Positions 21,914 to 35,771 of a stretch of DNA of 64,000 bases are shown here, piece after piece. Origin of the DNA: an endosymbiont of Bathymodiolus septemdierum str. Myojin knoll (GTDB taxonomy: Bacteria > Pseudomonadota > Gammaproteobacteria > PS1 > Pseudothioglobaceae); NCBI RefSeq assembly GCF_001547755.1, contig NZ_AP013042.1, positions 1,054,001 to 1,118,000 of the forward strand, in the 5' to 3' direction. The translations under genes were made by a program, and so were the position numbers. The notes beneath the pieces were generated by a model. It was not told the origin of the DNA. It saw only the letters and a list, made by a program, of their open reading frames with translations, and did not search any database. Each line of letters starts with the position of its first letter. The stretch's first letter is position 1.

Positions 21914-22849
21914 ATGTCAATACAACCCAATACTGCGGTCTTTTTAATGGGACCTACTGCCTCAGGAAAAACCGATTTTGCTATTGAATTATCCAAACAA
22001 TTCCCCGTACGCCTTATCAGTGTTGACTCTGCGCTGATTTACAAGGGTATGGACATTGGTACTGCTAAGCCCAACGCCGAAACCTTACGACAATACCCCC
22101 ATCAATTAATCAACATTTGTAACCCCGAAGATTCCTACTCTGCCTTTGATTTTGTCCAAGACGCCAAAACACAAATACAAATCGCCTTCAACAACAACGA
22201 AACCCCAATCTTAGTCGGTGGCACAGCATTCTACTTCAATGCTCTAGAACATGGTCTATCCGACCTACCCGAATCTACCCCAGAATCCCGAGAGAAATTC
22301 ACCCAACTACTATGCGAGAAAGGCGCATCCACTTTACATCAAGATTTGGCAACAATCGACCCAACTGCCGCAAAACGCATCCACCCCAATGATGCCCAAC
22401 GCATCACCCGCGCCCTAGAAGTCTTTGACATCAGTGGCAAAACCCTCACCGAACTCCAAGGCAACAAACAATTAGGACTCACCTACCCCGTCAAAAAAAT
22501 CATCCTAATGCCGCCCCGCCCCGAACTCCACGCTCGTATTGAACAACGATTCCTCTCAATGATAGACAACGATTTCCTTGCCGAAGTCAAAACCTTAAAA
22601 CAAAACCCTGCCCTCCATGAAGACCTTCCCTCTATCCGTTGCGTTGGCTACCGCCAAGCGTGGCAATACCTCAACAATGAAATCGACAAAGCAACCATGA
22701 TAGAAAAATCCATCATTGCCACTAGGCAACTCTGCAAACGCCAAAGCACTTGGCTCCGCAATGAGCCCAATGCCCTAACTCTAGAAATGCCAGATATCAC
22801 CAAAGCAATAGAATTTATTCATAATGAAAGGCCTTTGCATGATTCATAA
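21914..22849 (+). CDS. miaA: tRNA dimethylallyltransferase
   Basis: 311 residues. Walker A is GPTASGKTDFA (residues ~13-23), followed by SVDSALIYKGMDIGTAKP and the tRNA-binding SIRCVGYRQAWQYL. It adds dimethylallyl to A37, the substrate for MiaB (2103). The gene uses many C-ending codons in its second half compared with its neighbours. It stands alone, just upstream of the CRISPR array. Confidence 0.97.
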   Translation: MSIQPNTAVFLMGPTASGKTDFAIELSKQFPVRLISVDSALIYKGMDIGTAKPNAETLRQYPHQLINICNPEDSYSAFDFVQDAKTQIQIAFNNNETPILVGGTAFYFNALEHGLSDLPESTPESREKFTQLLCEKGASTLHQDLATIDPTAAKRIHPNDAQRITRALEVFDISGKTLTELQGNKQLGLTYPVKKIILMPPRPELHARIEQRFLSMIDNDFLAEVKTLKQNPALHEDLPSIRCVGYRQAWQYLNNEIDKATMIEKSIIATRQLCKRQSTWLRNEPNALTLEMPDITKAIEFIHNERPLHDS

Positions 22850-22887
22850 TTTTTTACCTAAATTATAAAAAAAAGCAACGGCAGTCA

Positions 22888-23055
22888 GTTATAGACCCCT
22901 CCCTCTCTCTGGTCTGATATACTAAATAAATATGTGCAAAGACATTCTGGCTAGTTATAGACCCCTCCCTCTCTCTGGTCTGATATACTTTCGGCAGTCG
23001 CCTTAGTCGGTGGTGGCTCGTTATAGACCCCTCCCTCTCTCTGGTCTGATATACT
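22888..23055 (+). CRISPR. Type II-C CRISPR array, 3 repeats and 2 spacers
   Basis: Three identical 36-base repeats lie at 22888-22923, 22954-22989 and 23020-23055. They begin GTTATAGACCCC and end GGTCTGATATACT. Two spacers are exactly 30 bases each (22924-22953 and 22990-23019). Orientation + is set by the tracrRNA anti-repeat at 28924, which is complementary to this strand. The 3' end TGATATACT is an extended -10 promoter motif, the arrangement known from Neisseria type II-C arrays, where each repeat starts its own crRNA. The array is short for a system with all genes present. Confidence 0.97.
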
Positions 23056-23109
23056 ACAAAGCCACACAACTCTTATATATCAAGAGTTGTGTGGCTTTGT
23101 AGTATGCGT
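23051..23109 (+). terminator. 24-bp perfect hairpin ending the array transcript
   Basis: The arms 23051-23074 and 23082-23105 pair without mismatch around a 7-base loop and are followed by GCG and a T5 run. The first five bases of the left arm are the last five of the terminal repeat. It sits between the array and the convergent cas2 end (23113) and probably terminates transcription from the array. Confidence 0.75.
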
Positions 23110-23112
23110 TTT

Positions 23113-23442
23113 TCAAAATAATAATAGTTGTTTGCCTGCACTTTTCTCTGTTTTTTTAACTGATCCAAGTAATATTTCCATGCGCGCATATTGCTTTTCG
23201 GTAACTTGTAACATTCTAATGTTTCCCTTGGGTGGCAATATAGATTTTAAGTATTTTAAATGTGATTCTACACTATCCAATCCTTTGCAAACCCTTGAAT
23301 ATACAGAAAATTGCAACATAATAAATCCATCTTTTAATAGGTATCGCCTGAAAACGGTATAAACTCTTTTATCCTGTTTTGTTTTAGTTGGTAAGTCAAA
23401 AAATACAATTAATCGCATAAAACGATCATTTTTATTGAGCAT
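23113..23442 (-). CDS. cas2: CRISPR-associated endoribonuclease-like protein Cas2
   Basis: 109 residues from ATG 23442, which overlaps the cas1 stop by 11 bases; the longer frame from 23487 would overlap cas1 further. The ferredoxin fold starts MRLIVFFDLPTKTKQDKR with the conserved aspartate, and VFRRYLLKDGFIMLQFSVY is typical of type II Cas2. With Cas1 it forms the spacer-integration complex. Confidence 0.94.
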   Translation of the reverse strand: MLNKNDRFMRLIVFFDLPTKTKQDKRVYTVFRRYLLKDGFIMLQFSVYSRVCKGLDSVESHLKYLKSILPPKGNIRMLQVTEKQYARMEILLGSVKKTEKSAGKQLLLF

Positions 23443-24322
23443 GTCTTGGTAATAACAACAAATCAATATCTTGATGTTCGCTGGCACTTAACAAACCAAA
23501 TACCATCATTTGAATAGCGTTCAATAGTGTTGTTTTTTCTTGCTTAAACACAACCTGTTTATTTAAAATATTAACCAAATCAGCGCGCATTTTAAAAGTT
23601 AACTTAGTGCCTGTCTTAGATGGATTGAGCAAATACACTTCAAAATCAATAAACGCTCTAAAAGGTTCTATTAAATCATCCACCAAATTAAAGGCATTTA
23701 ATTCATTTTTATGATGAAAACCAAATGCTGGAACAAAGCCACTAGCACTGATGCTCCTAGCAATCGCAGAACGTACAATACTATAGCCATAGTCTAAGGC
23801 AGAGTTTCTAATATCATTAGTATTATTGCGTTTAAAATTCTCAAACAATGTTCTCCAATAAATTGTCGCCGCATATGCCTCCCTATTGGTCTTATCTGCC
23901 GATTGCACTTTAGATGCGATTAAACTAAGCTGTTTATTAGGTTGTTTGGTAATTTTTATTAAAGTTTGCTGCTGGTTTAATATCTTTGCTTTAACAATTT
24001 TTTGCCACACTCTATTTTTAAAAGATTGCGACCAGTTATTTTGTAAAAATGCATGTTTCGTCATTCTACTATGTTGATAAAAAGGGTGGAATACACCAAT
24101 AGGCGTGTATTTTTCATCTGAAAAAATAACAACAATATTACTATCTGCACAATGCGACATAAAAACGGCAGTCATTGTTACTTGCGGATTTTCAATAACA
24201 ATAGCAGATACTTCACTAATGGCAATATTTGCATCTTCATCATCTAAACGCCTAAGCAAAATATTACCATTTTTAATGGATAATTTGCAAGGGTTACTGA
24301 TTAATAGCGTTTGCCACGACAT
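23432..24322 (-). CDS. cas1: CRISPR-associated integrase Cas1 (type II)
   Basis: 296 residues, beginning MSWQTLLISNPCKLSI as in type II Cas1. The metal-site region FHHKNELNAFNLVDDLIEPFR carries the conserved His and Asp, and ALDYGYSIVRSAI precedes it. It integrates new spacers with Cas2. The original upstream sequence, the end of cas9, is now separated by IS256: the start codon is 9 bases from the IS end, and its only purine-rich leader is AGGG inside the IS inverted repeat. Confidence 0.95.
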   Translation of the reverse strand: MSWQTLLISNPCKLSIKNGNILLRRLDDEDANIAISEVSAIVIENPQVTMTAVFMSHCADSNIVVIFSDEKYTPIGVFHPFYQHSRMTKHAFLQNNWSQSFKNRVWQKIVKAKILNQQQTLIKITKQPNKQLSLIASKVQSADKTNREAYAATIYWRTLFENFKRNNTNDIRNSALDYGYSIVRSAIARSISASGFVPAFGFHHKNELNAFNLVDDLIEPFRAFIDFEVYLLNPSKTGTKLTFKMRADLVNILNKQVVFKQEKTTLLNAIQMMVFGLLSASEHQDIDLLLLPRHAQ

Positions 24323-24330
24323 TTTATTTT

Positions 24331-25710
24331 GACCCTGTAAACCAGATTGTGTAAACCCTCATATTTTATAATCCCTAAAAAGGAGAAAAAACATGAGTAA
24401 CGCAACACTAAGAAAAAACCAAAAGAACCAACTGAACAACACAGGCATTAACCAACAAAAACTCCGTGCTTTTGCTGGTGAGCTTGCCAAAGACATCCAC
24501 ACCCAAGATGACTTGGCAGACTTGTCTGCATCATTGGTTAAGATGACCATAGAAGCGGCACTTGGTGCTGAGATGGAACATCACCTTGGCTATCCAAAAT
24601 ATGGACAAAATGGCAATGAATCTAATGCCAGTAATAACGCTCGCAATGGCTACTACTCTAAAATTGTTAAAGGTAATCATGGCGAAGTTGAACTTGCTAT
24701 TCCAAGGGATCGCAATGCTAACTTTGAGCCTGCTATCATTGAGAAGGGTCAAACCAGATTAGGCGCTTTTGATAATCAAATATTAAGCCTGTATGCCAAA
24801 GGCATGAGCACCCGTGATATTGTCACAACCTTTAAAGAGATGTATGACGCTGACATCTCAGCAACGTTGGTGTCCAATGTAACACAAGCGGTTATTACTC
24901 AAGCCACAGAGTGGCGTAATCGTCCATTGGATGAGATTTACCCCATTGTTTATTTAGACGGTATTGTCATTAAAGTTAGGCAAGATAAACAAATCATTAA
25001 AAAGACCATGTACATTGCCCTAGGCGTTAATCTTGAGGGTAAAAAAGAATGTCTTGGCTTATGGTTGTCCAAAAATGAATCTTCTAAGTTCTGGTTGGGC
25101 GTTCTTAACGATATTGCTAATCGTGGCGTAAAAGACATTCTGATCGCCTCAGTCGATGGGTTAACGGGATTCCCCGAAGCTATTAATGCCGTGTTCCCAC
25201 AGGCTGATGTACAACTGTGTATTGTTCATATGGTTCGCAACTCGCTTAAATATGTGGGCTATAAGGAACATAAGAATGTTGCTAGTGATTTAAAGCAAAT
25301 CTATCAGTCTATTACTGAAGAAGAAGCTTTATTGGCGTTAGATGAGTTTGAGTATAAATGGGATACGCAGTTCCCAAGTATCGCCAAATCGTGGCGACGA
25401 AATTGGGATAATGTTGCTACTCTATTTGCTTATCCTGAGGCAATCAGAAAGGCAATCTATACCACTAATGCCATTGAATCCTTAAACTCAATGATTAGAA
25501 AATCTATCAAAAACAGAAAGATTTTTAATCATGATAACTCTGCTTTTAAAGTGGTCTTTTTAGCCATTGAAGCAGCCAGTAAGAAATGGACAATGCCAAT
25601 ACGAAATTGGTCACAAGCAATGAATCAGTTTATAATCCTACATGAGGATAGATTAAAGGATTATGTCTGATTTTTGAAAGAGGTGTTTACACAATCTGGT
25701 TTACAGGGTC
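24331..25710 (+). mobile_element. IS256-family insertion sequence, intact
   Basis: The 1380-bp element has perfect 26-bp terminal inverted repeats (24331-24356 and 25685-25710, starting GACCCTGTAAACCAGATTG) and an 8-bp target duplication TTTATTTT (24323-24330 and 25711-25718). Identical ends and target sites indicate a recent insertion. It lies between cas9 and cas1, in opposite orientation. Confidence 0.97.
24393..25670 (+). CDS. IS256-family (Mutator-type) transposase
   Basis: 425 residues, full length. The DDE residues appear in VYLDGIVIKV, IASVDGLTGFPEAI and the glutamate of TTNAIESLNSMIRKSI; CIVHMVRNSLKYV is the family's histidine motif. A clear AAAAGGAG ribosome binding site precedes the ATG. 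No frameshift or stop is seen, so the element may still be active. Confidence 0.96.
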   Translation: MSNATLRKNQKNQLNNTGINQQKLRAFAGELAKDIHTQDDLADLSASLVKMTIEAALGAEMEHHLGYPKYGQNGNESNASNNARNGYYSKIVKGNHGEVELAIPRDRNANFEPAIIEKGQTRLGAFDNQILSLYAKGMSTRDIVTTFKEMYDADISATLVSNVTQAVITQATEWRNRPLDEIYPIVYLDGIVIKVRQDKQIIKKTMYIALGVNLEGKKECLGLWLSKNESSKFWLGVLNDIANRGVKDILIASVDGLTGFPEAINAVFPQADVQLCIVHMVRNSLKYVGYKEHKNVASDLKQIYQSITEEEALLALDEFEYKWDTQFPSIAKSWRRNWDNVATLFAYPEAIRKAIYTTNAIESLNSMIRKSIKNRKIFNHDNSAFKVVFLAIEAASKKWTMPIRNWSQAMNQFIILHEDRLKDYV

Positions 25711-25711
25711 T

Positions 25712-28700
25712 TTATTTTTTCTTTGGCTTGCTCTTATACATTTGTTTAATCAGAGGTAGTCGTTTTTCATTTTTCACTTCCGCTATGTCTCCTAATACCG
25801 ATACTTGATATTTTTTTAAAGATGCCAATCCTGATCCAGTTGCAAGCAAAATATCTTTATACCCTTTTTTATTATCAGATTCTTTTCTTTCAATTTCAGC
25901 TTTATAATTCTGCTGAAAGGCAATTTTTCCATCTGATCTGATATATTTAAAATAAGCCAAAAGATGCTTACTATCTTTGGTTTTAGTTTTCTTGGTTTTA
26001 AACTCAATCAAATCATCTTTAAACAAAGAAAATAAAAACTGAACGTTTTTATCTATTTCATTACCTTTCAAATCCAGTTCTGGAAAATCATCTTTATAAA
26101 AATCGGCTGGATAAAATACTATAAATTGATATTTATTTTTTGCATTTTTAAACACATCAACTCTTTGAATGACCCCATTTTCTGCCATACCATTATTAAC
26201 TGGGAATTTATACTTTCCACCCGTGTCTTTTGGCTTGATAGTCGCTTTATGCGCTGCTCCTGAAATTTTTCGCCTTGGTGCGAATGAAACAAAAATATCA
26301 CCGACACTTTCATCAAGTACACTCTTGAAATCAGAAAAAGGCGGGGTGAATTTTATTTTTCTTTCTTTGGCAGTTTGATATTTGAAGTCTTCTCTTTTAG
26401 CGGAAATAGTTGACATTCTTTGCACTTCGCCTTGTGTGGCAAATGCCAAAATAATAGCGTCTTCAGCATGATGTAGATTGTTATCTCTATTTTTCTCTTC
26501 AATACCCCAGTTATAACGCAATTGATTTGTCAATGCACCACTTCTGACCTTTACCTTTTGTTTAATCGTATCATTTTGACTAAATTGCAAATGATTTTGC
26601 ACAAAATTTTTAATAAATCTTGAAGCATAAGCCGTATCGTTTAGATTGCGTGCTAAAAAACCACTTTCTGGGTTTTTAATATCATCGCTAAAATCATTGC
26701 CTCGTCTTGGTGGTAGTGTCGTATTAAGCAGTTTATGTTTCTTTGCCTGCTTAATGCCAGCAAAGCTACTCACATAATTTTTATATTCTTGCCATTCTTT
26801 ACTGTCTTTACTGTTTTTATCGCTATTTGTCAAATATTCAAATGGCGTTTGGTTTGCTTTATTTTGATTTTCTGCAGATAAACACAAAGCCTTATTATTC
26901 AAACTATTATCAAAAGTTCTGCTCCATGGCAAAATATGATCAATTTCCACATACCCATCTTCCAGTAGTTTGTTTATCTCGATTTCTTTTTTAGAATAGA
27001 TACATTTTCCATGCTGTTGTTCATACAATCTTAATTTCAACAAGTCTCTACCTGAACCTTCATACTTAAAAATTTCTAAAAACTTTACCCTGATTGCTTC
27101 TTTTTCTTGTGCATATTCCTTTTGCCCTGTTTGGATTTCAAACTTTATTTTTTTAGAATTTTTTAACTCCCTTGCCATTTCAATATGCATCGCATCAAAA
27201 CTACCATGCTTACGAATAACAGCATTTAGCACTTTTCTAAATTGTGAAAAAACACGCTTAACTGTTGGACTGGTAATTTGATAATTCTCTTCTTTATTGA
27301 GAGGTCGTAAATATTGTTGTGGATTAGCGGCTTTAAATTGAGAATGGTGTTTATATTCAGAATGAGCAACAGCGTCATGATATTTTAACCCTTGACATAA
27401 ATAAGGTAATAATTTGTTGATAGCTTTCAAGGACAAACTATTAAACCCCGAAAAAGATATATTTAACAAGCTATTAATCGCTTCATTTACAATAGTTTTA
27501 TCCATATTAAAGTCATTAAAAACTTGCTTTTTTAAGTCTTGTGTTGCACTTTTATCATCTTTTTGATAACTTAAAATCTCAGCAATTTTATTAAACTTAT
27601 CTTTGTCAATAAATAACAAATCAAAAACTTCTTTATTTAATTCTTTTTTAATAGAGTGGTAGCCATTTAATTTGCCAAAAACAGTGTTCTCAACCTTAGT
27701 GTCATATTTAACGCCGTTAAATTTTTGCGACTCTGAAAGAGATAAAATACTGCGAATACTGCTATATTTATAACACTTAAACTTTTCTTTCTTATCATCT
27801 AAAACTTGTTTTTCTAATAAGACTTTTTGCTCAGGCGTAAGCCAATCCTCTAGTTTATAAAAATCTTCTATTTTGGCTTTAATGTTCGTTTTATATTCAA
27901 AATTTTGATGATAATCTAGTTGTTTAAATTTAAAGGCATCGGTTATTTTTAGTTGTTTTCTTAGGGTTGTGTATTTAACTTCTTTTATACTATAAAAAAT
28001 ATCAAGCAATTTATCAAATTCTGAAATCTCAAATAACCGCTTGATTTCACCCGTACTTTTATCAATTAAATCGGTATTGTTGATTTTACTAAGTAAGGTT
28101 GATTTTTCTACTGAAAAACAATTTTTTGCTCCTCTATATTCCTGAGTTTCAAAAGTGCATTTTCCAACTAAATCGGCTTTAAACTTTATTGGTCTTTGTG
28201 TAAAAGCAATATCTTTATAATGTTCTTTCAATCCATCAGTTGCAAATTGATTACCAAAATCTCTTTGTGATTCAAATAACACATCAATCTCTTTTCTTAA
28301 TAAATCACGAGAAATTGAATGCTTGTATTGATCTTTTTTATTGCGCCTTATTCTATTATCTGGATAACGATTTTCTGTATAAAGCATTTCTCCAATCGTT
28401 TTATAGCCTAATTCATTCATTTTCTTTTCATTCTTACTAATACCGCTTAAAACTTTTTTCTTATCGGTATTGCCACTTTCTTCTGATTTACGATTAGATT
28501 GATAAGCTCGTCTTTTGGCAATATGATACAAAACCCTTGCCCACTCTTTGTTATTGAGCTGTTGTTCTAAACCTTTTGCCCGTAGTTGCCAGATATCTAA
28601 ACGATTTTTACTATTAAATAGATGTTTAAATTCTGATTTTGAAAGTAATTTATGGGCAATAAATAACTTTTTGAGTTGGTTAAGTCGTTGTTTTCTACGA

Positions 28701-28876
28701 CTTAAAACTCTTCTACCCCCTCTAAAACTTCGCCTAACAGCAGCAAGCGTTTTCCCCTCTCTATTAGTCGATTGAGTGAAAATACGCACCCCTGAATCAA
28801 TAATTTTATTATTCTTATCATTAACCAATGCCCATCCAACTGAAGCGACACCTAAATCAACACCTAATATTCTCAT
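25712..28876 (-). CDS. cas9: Cas9 endonuclease, type II-C
   Basis: 1054 residues, compact II-C size. RuvC-I is ILGVDLGVASVGWAL with D7; the arginine-rich bridge helix spans about 46-72 (RRSFRGGRRVLSRRKQR); RuvC-II is MHIEMAREL with E566; HNH is YVEIDHILPWSRTFDNS with D646, H647 and N670; RuvC-III is HHAEDAIILAF with H802/H803 and D806. All nuclease residues are therefore present. A PAM-interacting C-terminal domain (from about 850) ends in a lysine-rich tail. The stop TAA lies inside the IS256 target duplication; before the insertion cas1 began one base further on. Confidence 0.97.
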   Translation of the reverse strand: MRILGVDLGVASVGWALVNDKNNKIIDSGVRIFTQSTNREGKTLAAVRRSFRGGRRVLSRRKQRLNQLKKLFIAHKLLSKSEFKHLFNSKNRLDIWQLRAKGLEQQLNNKEWARVLYHIAKRRAYQSNRKSEESGNTDKKKVLSGISKNEKKMNELGYKTIGEMLYTENRYPDNRIRRNKKDQYKHSISRDLLRKEIDVLFESQRDFGNQFATDGLKEHYKDIAFTQRPIKFKADLVGKCTFETQEYRGAKNCFSVEKSTLLSKINNTDLIDKSTGEIKRLFEISEFDKLLDIFYSIKEVKYTTLRKQLKITDAFKFKQLDYHQNFEYKTNIKAKIEDFYKLEDWLTPEQKVLLEKQVLDDKKEKFKCYKYSSIRSILSLSESQKFNGVKYDTKVENTVFGKLNGYHSIKKELNKEVFDLLFIDKDKFNKIAEILSYQKDDKSATQDLKKQVFNDFNMDKTIVNEAINSLLNISFSGFNSLSLKAINKLLPYLCQGLKYHDAVAHSEYKHHSQFKAANPQQYLRPLNKEENYQITSPTVKRVFSQFRKVLNAVIRKHGSFDAMHIEMARELKNSKKIKFEIQTGQKEYAQEKEAIRVKFLEIFKYEGSGRDLLKLRLYEQQHGKCIYSKKEIEINKLLEDGYVEIDHILPWSRTFDNSLNNKALCLSAENQNKANQTPFEYLTNSDKNSKDSKEWQEYKNYVSSFAGIKQAKKHKLLNTTLPPRRGNDFSDDIKNPESGFLARNLNDTAYASRFIKNFVQNHLQFSQNDTIKQKVKVRSGALTNQLRYNWGIEEKNRDNNLHHAEDAIILAFATQGEVQRMSTISAKREDFKYQTAKERKIKFTPPFSDFKSVLDESVGDIFVSFAPRRKISGAAHKATIKPKDTGGKYKFPVNNGMAENGVIQRVDVFKNAKNKYQFIVFYPADFYKDDFPELDLKGNEIDKNVQFLFSLFKDDLIEFKTKKTKTKDSKHLLAYFKYIRSDGKIAFQQNYKAEIERKESDNKKGYKDILLATGSGLASLKKYQVSVLGDIAEVKNEKRLPLIKQMYKSKPKKK

Positions 28877-28904
28877 ATTTTTTTATTATGTTAAAAAAAA
28901 TGTA

Positions 28905-28910
28905 TATAAT
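28905..28910 (+). promoter_or_regulatory. -10 box of the tracrRNA promoter
   Basis: TATAAT is a perfect -10 element 14 bases before the anti-repeat; a weak -35 (TTTATT, 28882-28887) lies 17 bases upstream. The region is shared with the divergent cas9 start at 28876. Confidence 0.65.
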
Positions 28911-28916
28911 ACACCA

Positions 28917-29036
28917 TCTTAATAGTATGTCATACCAAGAGAGAGGGAGGATTTACTATAATAAGGTTTCTAGGTTTCTTGATCCGAAAGGCTCTAATAT
29001 TTATATTATCCTCAATAAGAAACCACACTTTTTTTT
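28917..29036 (+). ncRNA. tracrRNA of the type II-C system
   Basis: Bases 28924-28960 form an anti-repeat: AGTATGTCATACCAAGAGAG continues to GGGAGG and pairs along nearly the whole CRISPR repeat, with a bulge near the 3' side (ATTTACTATA against the repeat's 5' end). It continues ATAATAAGG, the same junction sequence as in the Neisseria tracrRNA (ACAATAAGG). The tail forms a stem GGTTTCTT (28973-28980)/AAGAAACC (29017-29024), followed by T8 at 29029-29036, a plausible terminator. The predicted length is about 120 bases. It is transcribed divergently from cas9, away from the array. Confidence 0.9.
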
Positions 29037-29039
29037 AAA

Positions 29040-29071
29040 CCCTACACAATGGTTATTGTATAGGGTTTTTT
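29040..29071 (+). terminator. Rho-independent terminator after tracrRNA
   Basis: The stem CCCTACACAAT/ATTGTATAGGG with one mismatch is followed by six T residues. It is a second terminator for the tracrRNA and lies at the 3' end of the convergent murD. Confidence 0.85.
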
Positions 29072-30353
29072 AATGGGCGCTATTCACATAATCTTTAAAC
29101 ATTCTTCCACGCTGTTCAAAGTTGTCAAACATATCAAAACTGGCACAGGCTGGAGATAATAGGATTGCACCCTTGATAATAAGGGATTGAGCGGTGGTGA
29201 TGGCGTCTTCTAAGGTGTTTGCCAAGGTTGTGTTGGTGATGGATTTTTCAAATTTGTGGGTATCTTTGCCGATTAGGACGACGGGGATTTTATGCTCGTT
29301 AATGAGGGTGAATAGCGGGTGATAATCCTCTTGTTTAGCGACGCCGCCCATAATGAGAATGATGTTTTTATGGGTGGAAATTAGGGCTTGAATGGCGGTG
29401 ATTGTGGAGATGGCGTTGGTGGCTTTTGAATCATTGTAGTAAGTAATGTTGTTTTTTTCTGTAACTTTTTCCAGGCGGTGCTCTAAGCCTTTGAAGGTTT
29501 TTAAGGTGGCAATCATCGCCTCCGTGCTCAATCCAATTTGGTCGCCAAGACTAAGTGCGGCTAAGGCATTTTTGATATTATGTTCACCGATGAGTGGCAT
29601 ATCATCAATACACATTAATGAAGTATCGCCTTTGAGTAGATAAGTGCTATTGTGACAAGTGACGGTGCCGAAATCTTTAGGATTTTTAGGTATGTCCATA
29701 CCAAAAATTTTACTGGAAGATTGTTTAGATGTCAGGGGTTCGTCGATATTAATGACGGAGGTTTGGCAATGTGTATAGAGGCTGAGTTTAGATTGTGCAT
29801 AATGCTCAAAACTTAGGTAGCGGTCTAAATGGTCGGGGGTAATGTTAAGTACCACGCCAGTGAATAGCCTTAAATTTTGCGTGTAATCTAATTGGTAGCT
29901 GGAAAGTTCTAACACATAATACGCAATATCATCATCCAGGCAATCAAGAGCAGGTTTGCCAATATTACCACCGATAGCGACTTTTTTGCCATCATTGGCA
30001 ATCATCTCACCAAATAATTGAGTAACGGTAGATTTTCCATTAGAGCCAGTAATACCAATGATGGGGGCTTGAGCGTGACGAGAAAATAGTTCTATGTCGC
30101 TGACAATAGAGATATTTTGCTGCTTTGCCCAAAGGACGATGGGCTCAGTTTGAGCGATACCAGGGCTGATGAAAATCTCGTCAATATCAGCGAGCAGGTC
30201 CAAGGTCCAGTCGCCGAGAATTGGAGATTGGGGGCAATTGTTTAATGAAGGAGGATTTTGGCGACTGTCGGCGATGCGATAAGCGATATTTTGTTTAGAT
30301 AAAAATCGTGCGATAGATAAACCTGTATCACCTAAACCTAAAACCAGTTTCAT
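29070..30353 (-). CDS. murD: UDP-N-acetylmuramoylalanine-D-glutamate ligase
   Basis: 427 residues. The N-terminal domain starts LVLGLGDTGLSIARFL, the ATP site is GITGSNGKSTVTQLF, and the C-terminal domain carries YYNDSKATNAISTI and SPACASFDMFDNFEQRG. It adds D-Glu to UDP-MurNAc-Ala. The gene stands apart from the murC-murB-ddl operon (14-18 kb) and is a single transcription unit. Confidence 0.97.
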   Translation of the reverse strand: MKLVLGLGDTGLSIARFLSKQNIAYRIADSRQNPPSLNNCPQSPILGDWTLDLLADIDEIFISPGIAQTEPIVLWAKQQNISIVSDIELFSRHAQAPIIGITGSNGKSTVTQLFGEMIANDGKKVAIGGNIGKPALDCLDDDIAYYVLELSSYQLDYTQNLRLFTGVVLNITPDHLDRYLSFEHYAQSKLSLYTHCQTSVINIDEPLTSKQSSSKIFGMDIPKNPKDFGTVTCHNSTYLLKGDTSLMCIDDMPLIGEHNIKNALAALSLGDQIGLSTEAMIATLKTFKGLEHRLEKVTEKNNITYYNDSKATNAISTITAIQALISTHKNIILIMGGVAKQEDYHPLFTLINEHKIPVVLIGKDTHKFEKSITNTTLANTLEDAITTAQSLIIKGAILLSPACASFDMFDNFEQRGRMFKDYVNSAH

Positions 30354-34023: not shown

Positions 34024-35211
34024 ATGAAAATTGAATCCATAAAAATTAAAAATTTTAAAGCATTTAAAAATGCTGAAATGAAAGATATTCCTAGATTTTG
34101 CGTAATTGTTGGTGCTAACGGTTCTGGAAAAACTACACTTTTTAATGTTTTTGGATTTTTAAAAGATGCTTTAACTGATGATGTTAATACTGCCTTTAAT
34201 AAACGAGGTAGATTTAACGAGGTTATTAGTCGCGATTGTAGTGGCAGTATAGAGTTTGAAATTAAATTTAGGGCCAAAGACACTTCTAAAAACAACCCAA
34301 TTATCACTTATTCTTTAAGTATATCCCAAAAAAATGGCAAAGCATTGGTGGAAAAAGAAGTTTTAAAATACCGTCGTGGAAGTAAAGGTACACCTTGGCA
34401 TTTTTTAGAATTTAGCAATGGCAAAGGTTACGCTGTAACTAATGAGTTAGATGGGGATACGGATATTAATGAGTTAAGTAGAGAAGAACAAACTTTAAAA
34501 TCACCAGATATTTTAGCCATCAAAGGTTTGGCGCAATTTGAGAAATTTCCAGCAGTTATTGCCCTTAGTGAATTAATTGACAATTGGCATGTGTCTGATA
34601 TCCATGTCAATGAAGCGCGCAACATTCAGCAAGCGGATTATGCCGAGCATTTATCTACTTTGGGTGAGAATTTATCCAATGTCGTTGACTATTTGCATAA
34701 TAATCACAAATCAACACTGGATGAGATTATCAAAATCTTGCAACAAAGGATTCTAGGAATTTCCAAGGTAGAGGCAAAAACTATTGAAACAGGGCAAGTT
34801 TTATTAAAAATTCAAGACGAATCTTTTGATAAACCATTTTTAGTGCGTTACATTTCTGATGGCACTATAAAAATGTTGGCTTATTTAGTTTTACTTTATG
34901 ACCCCAAACCCTACCCTTTGTTATGCGTTGAGGAGCCTGAAAATCAACTTTATCCGCATTTATTAGAAGAATTGGCAGAGGAATTTAGAGCGTATGCTAA
35001 TCGAGGTGAGCAGGTTTTTGTCTCCACACACTCACCTGATTTTCTTAATGCTGTTGAAGTTAATGAAGTATTTTATCTATCCAAGAATAATGGCTACACG
35101 ACAATCAAGCGCATCTCTGACGATGAACAAATTAAAGCCTTTATGAACGATGGCGACAAAATGGGATATTTGTGGAAACAAGGATTTTTTGATCAACTAG
35201 GCAAGCAATGA
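34024..35211 (+). CDS. AAA/ABC-type ATPase of a two-gene (OLD/AbiL-like) module
   Basis: 395 residues with a RecF/SMC-like ATPase head: Walker A GANGSGKTT (residues 30-38), a signature-like SDGTIKMLAYL (~278), Walker B LLCVEEPENQLYP (~297-309) and an H-loop STHSPDFLN (~333). A middle insert of ~200 residues separates the halves. The architecture matches the ATPase part of OLD-family and similar anti-phage proteins. It overlaps by four bases the next gene, which supplies a TOPRIM-like domain. The pair is wedged between thrC and cysM without a repeat or integrase. A defence role is inference. Confidence 0.8.
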   Translation: MKIESIKIKNFKAFKNAEMKDIPRFCVIVGANGSGKTTLFNVFGFLKDALTDDVNTAFNKRGRFNEVISRDCSGSIEFEIKFRAKDTSKNNPIITYSLSISQKNGKALVEKEVLKYRRGSKGTPWHFLEFSNGKGYAVTNELDGDTDINELSREEQTLKSPDILAIKGLAQFEKFPAVIALSELIDNWHVSDIHVNEARNIQQADYAEHLSTLGENLSNVVDYLHNNHKSTLDEIIKILQQRILGISKVEAKTIETGQVLLKIQDESFDKPFLVRYISDGTIKMLAYLVLLYDPKPYPLLCVEEPENQLYPHLLEELAEEFRAYANRGEQVFVSTHSPDFLNAVEVNEVFYLSKNNGYTTIKRISDDEQIKAFMNDGDKMGYLWKQGFFDQLGKQ

Positions 35212-35771
35212 ATCTGGTTTGCTTCACCGAAGAAAGATCTGCAAAAGAAATGTTACGAATTGTTCTGCCTAAAATACTACCTAATAATTCTTTACATTCT
35301 ATTTTTTCTTTTGAAGGAAAAAGTGATTTAGACAGACAAATAAAGAAAAAGTTAAAAAATTACAACCTTCCAGGCGCTCGCTTTTTAATTCTTAGAGATC
35401 AAGATTCTGCTATTTGCACTGATATTAAGCAGCAATTACTAGACAAAGTTAATGAAAGTGGTAAGAAAGATGTATCTATTGTTCGGATTGCTTGTCATGA
35501 ATTAGAAAATTTTTATTTAGGTGACTTATTAGCAGTTAAGCAAGCCTTTAATAAAATATTGCCTTCAAGTCAAACTTCTAAGAAATTCAGAAATGCCGAT
35601 AATTTAGCCAACGCAAAACAAGAATTACAAAGAATAACCAACAAAGAATATCAGCCCATATCAGGTTCAAAAGCAATAGCGCCCCACTTAAAATTAGATG
35701 ATAGCAACACATCTACTAGTTTCAATGCGCTACTTTCAGGAGTTAAAAAATTATGCACTATTCAACCATAG
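35208..35771 (+). CDS. DUF4276-family protein, TOPRIM-like candidate nuclease
   Basis: 187 residues. The N terminus FTEERSAKEML carries acidic residues E8/E9 in the place of the TOPRIM glutamate; LILRDQDSA (D64, D66) is the DxD-like strand, and RIACHELENFYLGDL (E98, E100) is the third family motif. These are the conserved parts of DUF4276 and suggest a metal-dependent TOPRIM fold as in OLD nucleases. It is coupled to the ATPase by a four-base overlap and overlaps cysM by 19 bases in another frame. Reaction and target are unknown. Confidence 0.75.
   Translation: MNLVCFTEERSAKEMLRIVLPKILPNNSLHSIFSFEGKSDLDRQIKKKLKNYNLPGARFLILRDQDSAICTDIKQQLLDKVNESGKKDVSIVRIACHELENFYLGDLLAVKQAFNKILPSSQTSKKFRNADNLANAKQELQRITNKEYQPISGSKAIAPHLKLDDSNTSTSFNALLSGVKKLCTIQP

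Follow-up and report, generated by a model that had tools for sequence, protein, structure and literature searches.

A highly probable tracrRNA gene, with a tail perhaps specific to its clade, beside the type II-C cas9 of a sulfur-oxidising bathymodioline mussel symbiont

In type II-C CRISPR systems, Cas9 is loaded with a dual RNA and then cleaves. A metagenomic II-C system with its tracrRNA upstream of cas9 has been published (PMC10281378), its arrays can be transcribed in the direction opposite to the cas genes (PMC7038990), and promoters can lie inside its repeats (PMC5965380). Cas9 and dual RNA co-evolve, and exchange works between close relatives only (PMC3936727). The Nme1Cas9 protein binds stem loops 1 and 2 (PMC6594998), both of which are present in the tail (-36.9 kcal/mol, z -7.2) of the Neisseria meningitidis-type locus in our comparison set (L081, which bears the Neisseria repeat and tracrRNA). 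Other II-C scaffolds depart from this plain two-stem-loop plan, among them the guide RNAs of BlCas9 and CjCas9, in whose structures triple helices are seen; the fold of the BlCas9 RNA was not predicted from sequence (PMC11222456).

We analysed a 64-kb window (64,000 nucleotides, numbered from its first letter) of the closed 1,469,434-bp genome of an endosymbiont of Bathymodiolus septemdierum, which contains a II-C locus. Among named relatives, the closest in Cas9 is BCLUESOX, another Bathymodiolus symbiont, whose protein is 78% identical to that of the window. We conclude with high confidence that positions 28917-29036 (+) are the tracrRNA gene of this sulfur-oxidising symbiont's type II-C CRISPR-Cas9 system, and that its tail is perhaps specific to the clade. 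From miaA to murD, the locus runs through a three-repeat array, cas2, cas1, an IS256 element, cas9 and finally the candidate tracrRNA gene:

21914-22849, + strand: miaA, the left border of the II-C locus
22888-23055, + strand: CRISPR array, three identical 36-nt repeats (at 22888, 22954 and 23020) and two spacers
23051-23105, no strand assigned: perfect 24-bp hairpin that overlaps the third repeat at its end (-38.7 kcal/mol)
23113-23487, - strand: cas2 (TIGR01573, 85.1 bits)
23432-24322, - strand: cas1 (TIGR03639, 288.6 bits)
24331-25710, + strand: IS256-family insertion, with 26-bp inverted repeats and an 8-bp target duplication (TTTATTTT)
25712-28876, - strand: cas9, type II-C, 1054 aa (TIGR01865, 658.5 bits), HNH and RuvC-III present
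28905-28910, + strand: tracrRNA -10 box TATAAT, read from the sequence, with a start predicted near 28917
28906-28933, - strand: predicted cas9 promoter ATGACA-16-TATTAT, a consensus match only (10 of 12 in a consensus scan)
28924-28962, + strand: tracrRNA anti-repeat, defined by pairing with the repeat
28958-28966, + strand: junction from anti-repeat to tail, ATAATAAGG, matching the (A/C)AATAA(A/G) of 11 relatives
28963-29036, + strand: tracrRNA tail, AU-rich and closed by T8 (29029-29036), with 28963-29025 conserved in BCLUESOX
29037-29071, no strand assigned: hairpin with T6 between tracrRNA and murD (-13.1 kcal/mol)
29070-30353, - strand: murD, the right border, convergent with the tracrRNA

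All three cas genes are intact open reading frames, and neither cas4 nor csn2 is among the ORFs between miaA and murD. The locus is therefore type II-C, with cas9, cas1 and cas2 but without csn2 or cas4.

The repeat, GTTATAGACCCCTCCCTCTCTCTGGTCTGATATACT, pairs over nearly all of its 36 nt with the anti-repeat, which lies 48 nt from the cas9 start. In a pairing scan, in which the repeat was aligned locally to each strand of the window and scored by base pairing, this site reached 58 and the next-best site 35; the maxima of ten shuffled strands were 32-37, and a chance origin was rejected on these scores. A first-pass annotation, made from the sequence by a model, had proposed an anti-repeat to almost the whole repeat, and these scores bear it out. 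Co-folding with the repeat, a check suggested at the same time, agrees, giving a duplex of -45.7 kcal/mol (shuffled mean -18.0, minimum -32.8). We carried the comparison to the whole 1.47-Mb genome as a search for the core pattern AGAGAGAGGGAGG, the full pairing scan having covered the window; the core occurs only in the three repeats and the anti-repeat, plus one copy elsewhere with one mismatch, so that this search revealed no better anti-repeat in the genome. A BLAST search of the array against the genome was too insensitive to recover the anti-repeat itself. Rfam gave no match anywhere in the window, which is uninformative because it matched none of the relatives' tracrRNAs that we tested either. 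A limited literature search found no description of a tracrRNA from any Bathymodiolus symbiont.

We compared the locus with 11 related II-C loci (L035, L036, L037, L067, L080, L081 and L082-L086). In 11/11 the anti-repeat is divergent from and upstream of cas9, 50-144 nt from the start of the cas9 match. This position is thus ordinary for such loci, and the interest that the first-pass annotation had seen in the divergent placement falls away. So does that of the 6-kb distance to the array, which is real but has been lengthened by the 1.4-kb IS256 element.

The Neisseria-type locus shares more than gene order. There, too, the anti-repeat engages almost all of the repeat, and the duplex has the same small internal loop ahead of its lower stem; an extended -10-like motif closes the repeat, as it does in the window (TGATATACT); and the array is likewise convergent to the cas genes, the crRNA sense in the window being + as judged from pairing with the anti-repeat. 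The (A)AATAAGG junction is common to both: the Neisseria-like junction claimed earlier is present as AATAAGG, although the full ATAATAAGG is one base off the ACAATAAGG of L081. The other ten loci, gammaproteobacterial and other pseudomonadotal, share position, orientation and junction, but in all of them a compact nexus hairpin immediately follows the junction, and there is a GC-rich terminator hairpin as well. A second II-C system occurs in the same bacterial family (L038, L041 and others), with a Cas9 about 33% identical. In L038 and L041 its tracrRNA likewise lies upstream of cas9 and diverges from it, and in L041 the system too adjoins murD, but its repeat and tail are unrelated and it has a strong terminator hairpin.

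BCLUESOX carries the same tracrRNA element at the same position of the locus. Its -10 box is identical (6/6), and identity reaches 36/39 (92%) in the anti-repeat and 60/63 (95%) in tail positions 28963-29025, against 61% at fourfold-degenerate sites of cas9 and 54-69% in the flanking stretches (binomial p against the fourfold rate, 1e-5 for the anti-repeat and 4e-10 for the tail). The element is under purifying selection. The three substitutions in the tail fall in predicted loops or change G-C to G-U, and are too few to count as evidence of structure. Close sequences of the tail were found only in these two among the genomes searched. With pairing, uniqueness and synteny added to this strong conservation, the element very probably encodes the tracrRNA of this type II-C Cas9.

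Its expression can be modelled on known II-C systems. RNA polymerase would start at about 28917 from the TATAAT, a perfect -10 box as first noted, and stop at T8, for a transcript of about 120 nt; read-through to the murD-side hairpin would extend it to about 155 nt. The TATAAT and the T run are conserved, but the -35 is weak, at best 3/6 as read from the sequence, and the stem ahead of T8 is weak and statistically unsupported; the tracrRNA TATAAT site is absent from the output of the promoter scan. Of the two T-run terminators proposed earlier, T8 stands behind its weak predicted stem; the T6 hairpin (29037-29068), also predicted, is probably shared with convergent murD, because BCLUESOX has a different hairpin sequence at the same place; for the tracrRNA it probably serves as a backup stop. 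On the opposite strand, the promoter predicted for cas9 shares DNA with both the tracrRNA -10 box and the first bases of the anti-repeat, and the two divergent promoters may compete. Transcription of the crRNAs would run against that of the cas genes, with its promoters probably located within the repeats, and the repeat part of each crRNA would pair with the anti-repeat. By analogy with known systems, Cas9 would then bind duplex, junction and tail, licensing DNA cleavage.

The tail is where the symbionts part from their relatives. In all 11 related loci, a nexus hairpin and then a terminator hairpin follow CTACAATAA, with tail energies of -18.8 to -38.3 kcal/mol and z-scores of -2.6 to -7.6. 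The tails of the window and BCLUESOX are about 30% GC, with energies of -10.4 and -10.6 kcal/mol and z-scores of -0.91 and -0.60. We built a covariance model (R2) from six canonical tracrRNAs with a stated structure, replacing an earlier model (R1) that was dropped when RNAalifold paired the anti-repeat with the terminator. R2 found the held-out L035 (63.0 bits), L086 (58.6), L080 (57.1), L036 (43.1) and Neisseria-type L081 (29.2), whereas the window scored 12.3 bits (E 0.88) and BCLUESOX 11.5. Both mussel symbionts thus have the anti-repeat and (A)AATAA(G/A)G junction of the canonical scaffold, but structure prediction finds neither the canonical nexus and GC-rich terminator hairpins nor stem loops 1 and 2 of the Neisseria type in their AU-rich tails. 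An AT-rich genome alone does not explain the weak tail, because strong hairpins (z -3.2) persist in the other II-C system of this genus. The claim that the tail differs from known scaffolds therefore survives against eleven relatives, the covariance model and the literature consulted, a subset of published scaffolds. The likeness to BlCas9 and CjCas9 is one of departure from the common plan, with the symbiont tail known from prediction and the other two from structures.

Within the tail, the tandem copies GGTTTCT (28965-28971) and GGTTTCTT (28973-28980) can each pair with AAGAAACC (29017-29024). In the best predicted fold, a 9-bp stem joins the second GGUUUCU copy to AAGAAACC around an AU-rich hairpin, with the first copy competing in the window (pairing probability 0.15-0.22); in BCLUESOX, AAGGU also pairs with ACCUU ahead of the T run. 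The long stem described in the first-pass annotation is thus predicted, closing a large loop, but it folds no better than shuffled sequence (z -0.91) and is not established. The tail is thus a conserved sequence whose structure is putative.

The tail could still form an ordinary nexus and terminator in the Cas9 complex or at habitat temperature, missed by prediction, so that the architecture would be canonical and only the sequence diverged. Energies at 37 C understate its stability, because at 4-10 C, nearer the habitat, the predicted energy is -20 to -24 kcal/mol; in addition, UUGAUCCG resembles the GUAUCCG linker of the relatives, a weak AAGG/UCUU nexus is possible, and the BlCas9 RNA is a precedent for a fold unpredictable from sequence (PMC11222456). 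Set against this are the R2 alignment of the window tail, which breaks most of the model's pairs, and the strong hairpins of the same-genus II-C tracrRNA. We give a hidden canonical fold somewhat less than an even chance.

In the reading that the scaffold has truly changed, the tail would be a clade-specific Cas9-binding element replacing the canonical nexus and terminator hairpins, in a clade seen here only in bathymodioline mussel symbionts. The conserved AU-rich tail would be recognised anew, having co-evolved with a duplication in the recognition lobe of Cas9. We advance this as a tentative possibility. The Cas9s of the two symbionts have about 70 recognition-lobe residues that are absent from ten relatives. 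A profile of the relatives' segment matches twice in the window Cas9 (residues 285-332 and 369-414), and likewise in BCLUESOX, but once in the Neisseria-type protein, and a solved II-C Cas9 chain aligns to both copies; when the two copies were simply aligned with each other, the result was weaker, with 41/2000 shuffles reaching the score. As judged from these alignments, the extra residues are best read as a tandem duplication of the segment, at about 285-332 and 369-414; we only infer its link to the altered tail. An AlphaFold prediction of Cas9 from a two-sequence alignment (mean pLDDT 28.5) was set aside.

A tail departing from the nexus-and-terminator plan, together with the recognition-lobe duplication, would make this locus a testable case of changing scaffold recognition in II-C Cas9. 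Given a tail without the relatives' two hairpins, the protein may grip its guide RNA differently, and the sequence reported here provides the guide RNA needed to assay it.

A real tracrRNA gene decaying in this strain would also have a weak tail, through degeneration and not as a variant scaffold. Several features of the locus fit decay. The IS256 element sits directly after the cas9 stop and separates cas9 from cas1-cas2; it is absent from that junction in BCLUESOX and in a further relative, G005, where cas1 begins within a few bases of the cas9 stop. The array holds two spacers only, and the second (22990-23019) matches the host chromosome 31/31 in two comM/YifB-like ATPase genes (G000:C1:1394063-1394093, +, and 1372280-1372310, -), one of which is without its N-terminal part. 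The cas9 start has no Shine-Dalgarno-like sequence (28877-28896) where BCLUESOX has GGAG, a difference that may make cas9 translation weaker in this strain. Strain-level decay cannot account for the tail, however, because BCLUESOX shares it, in the same non-canonical form and with a conservation (95%) exceeding that of cas9 itself. Moreover, cas9, cas1 and cas2 are open, and G005, with the same repeat, has about 34 spacers. We regard decay as an unlikely source of the tail.

The self-match concerns the present activity of the RNA and leaves its identity untouched. The 3' flank at the comM-like sites is GCCACCCA; a perfect self-match suggests an unmet PAM, or else interference that is low or switched off in the strain. 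It prompts the question how a strain can keep such a spacer alongside an intact cas9; ways of tolerating self-matching spacers have been reviewed (PMC6990116). Beyond these sites, spacer matches were confined to diverged comM-like copies in relatives, with no phage or viral-contig match in the collections searched.

Two further alternatives carry little weight. One is a regulatory RNA in the manner of tracr-L or scaRNA, which would repress cas9 or act as a decoy for crRNA and be no part of the guide; it could draw on the overlap of the predicted cas9 promoter with the tracrRNA promoter and anti-repeat DNA. Unlike tracr-L, however, the element shows no repeat-like partner upstream of its anti-repeat (score 27; shuffled mean 26.7) and has only about 7 nt ahead of it, and the core-pattern search of the genome gave no other anti-repeat core to serve Cas9, which makes this reading highly improbable. 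A small protein gene has a negligible chance: an 81-aa ORF (28828-29073, +) spans the element, but indels and stops break its frame in BCLUESOX while the nucleotides stay conserved, which excludes a coding explanation.

A few observations concern the surroundings of the gene. The 23051-23105 hairpin is probably the array-end terminator and looks to be under selection, because a diverged hairpin occupies the same place in BCLUESOX. The G005 array (L034, 3380-5600) consists of about 34 spacers between repeats that vary in homopolymer length, possibly through assembly errors; its spacers had no protospacer in the phage collection searched. The murD-adjacent site (window 22849-29070; L041 2251-6714) holds the different II-C system in L041, from another genus, and in G005 a single repeat of that L041-type system lies between array and miaA (L034 near 5700); the different system at this site and the leftover repeat suggest that one II-C system replaced another between miaA and murD. 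Further along the window, an AAA ATPase and a DUF4276 gene (34024-35771), set between threonine-synthase-like and cysteine-synthase-like genes, match the PADLOC candidate defence pair HEC-01 (633 and 224 bits).
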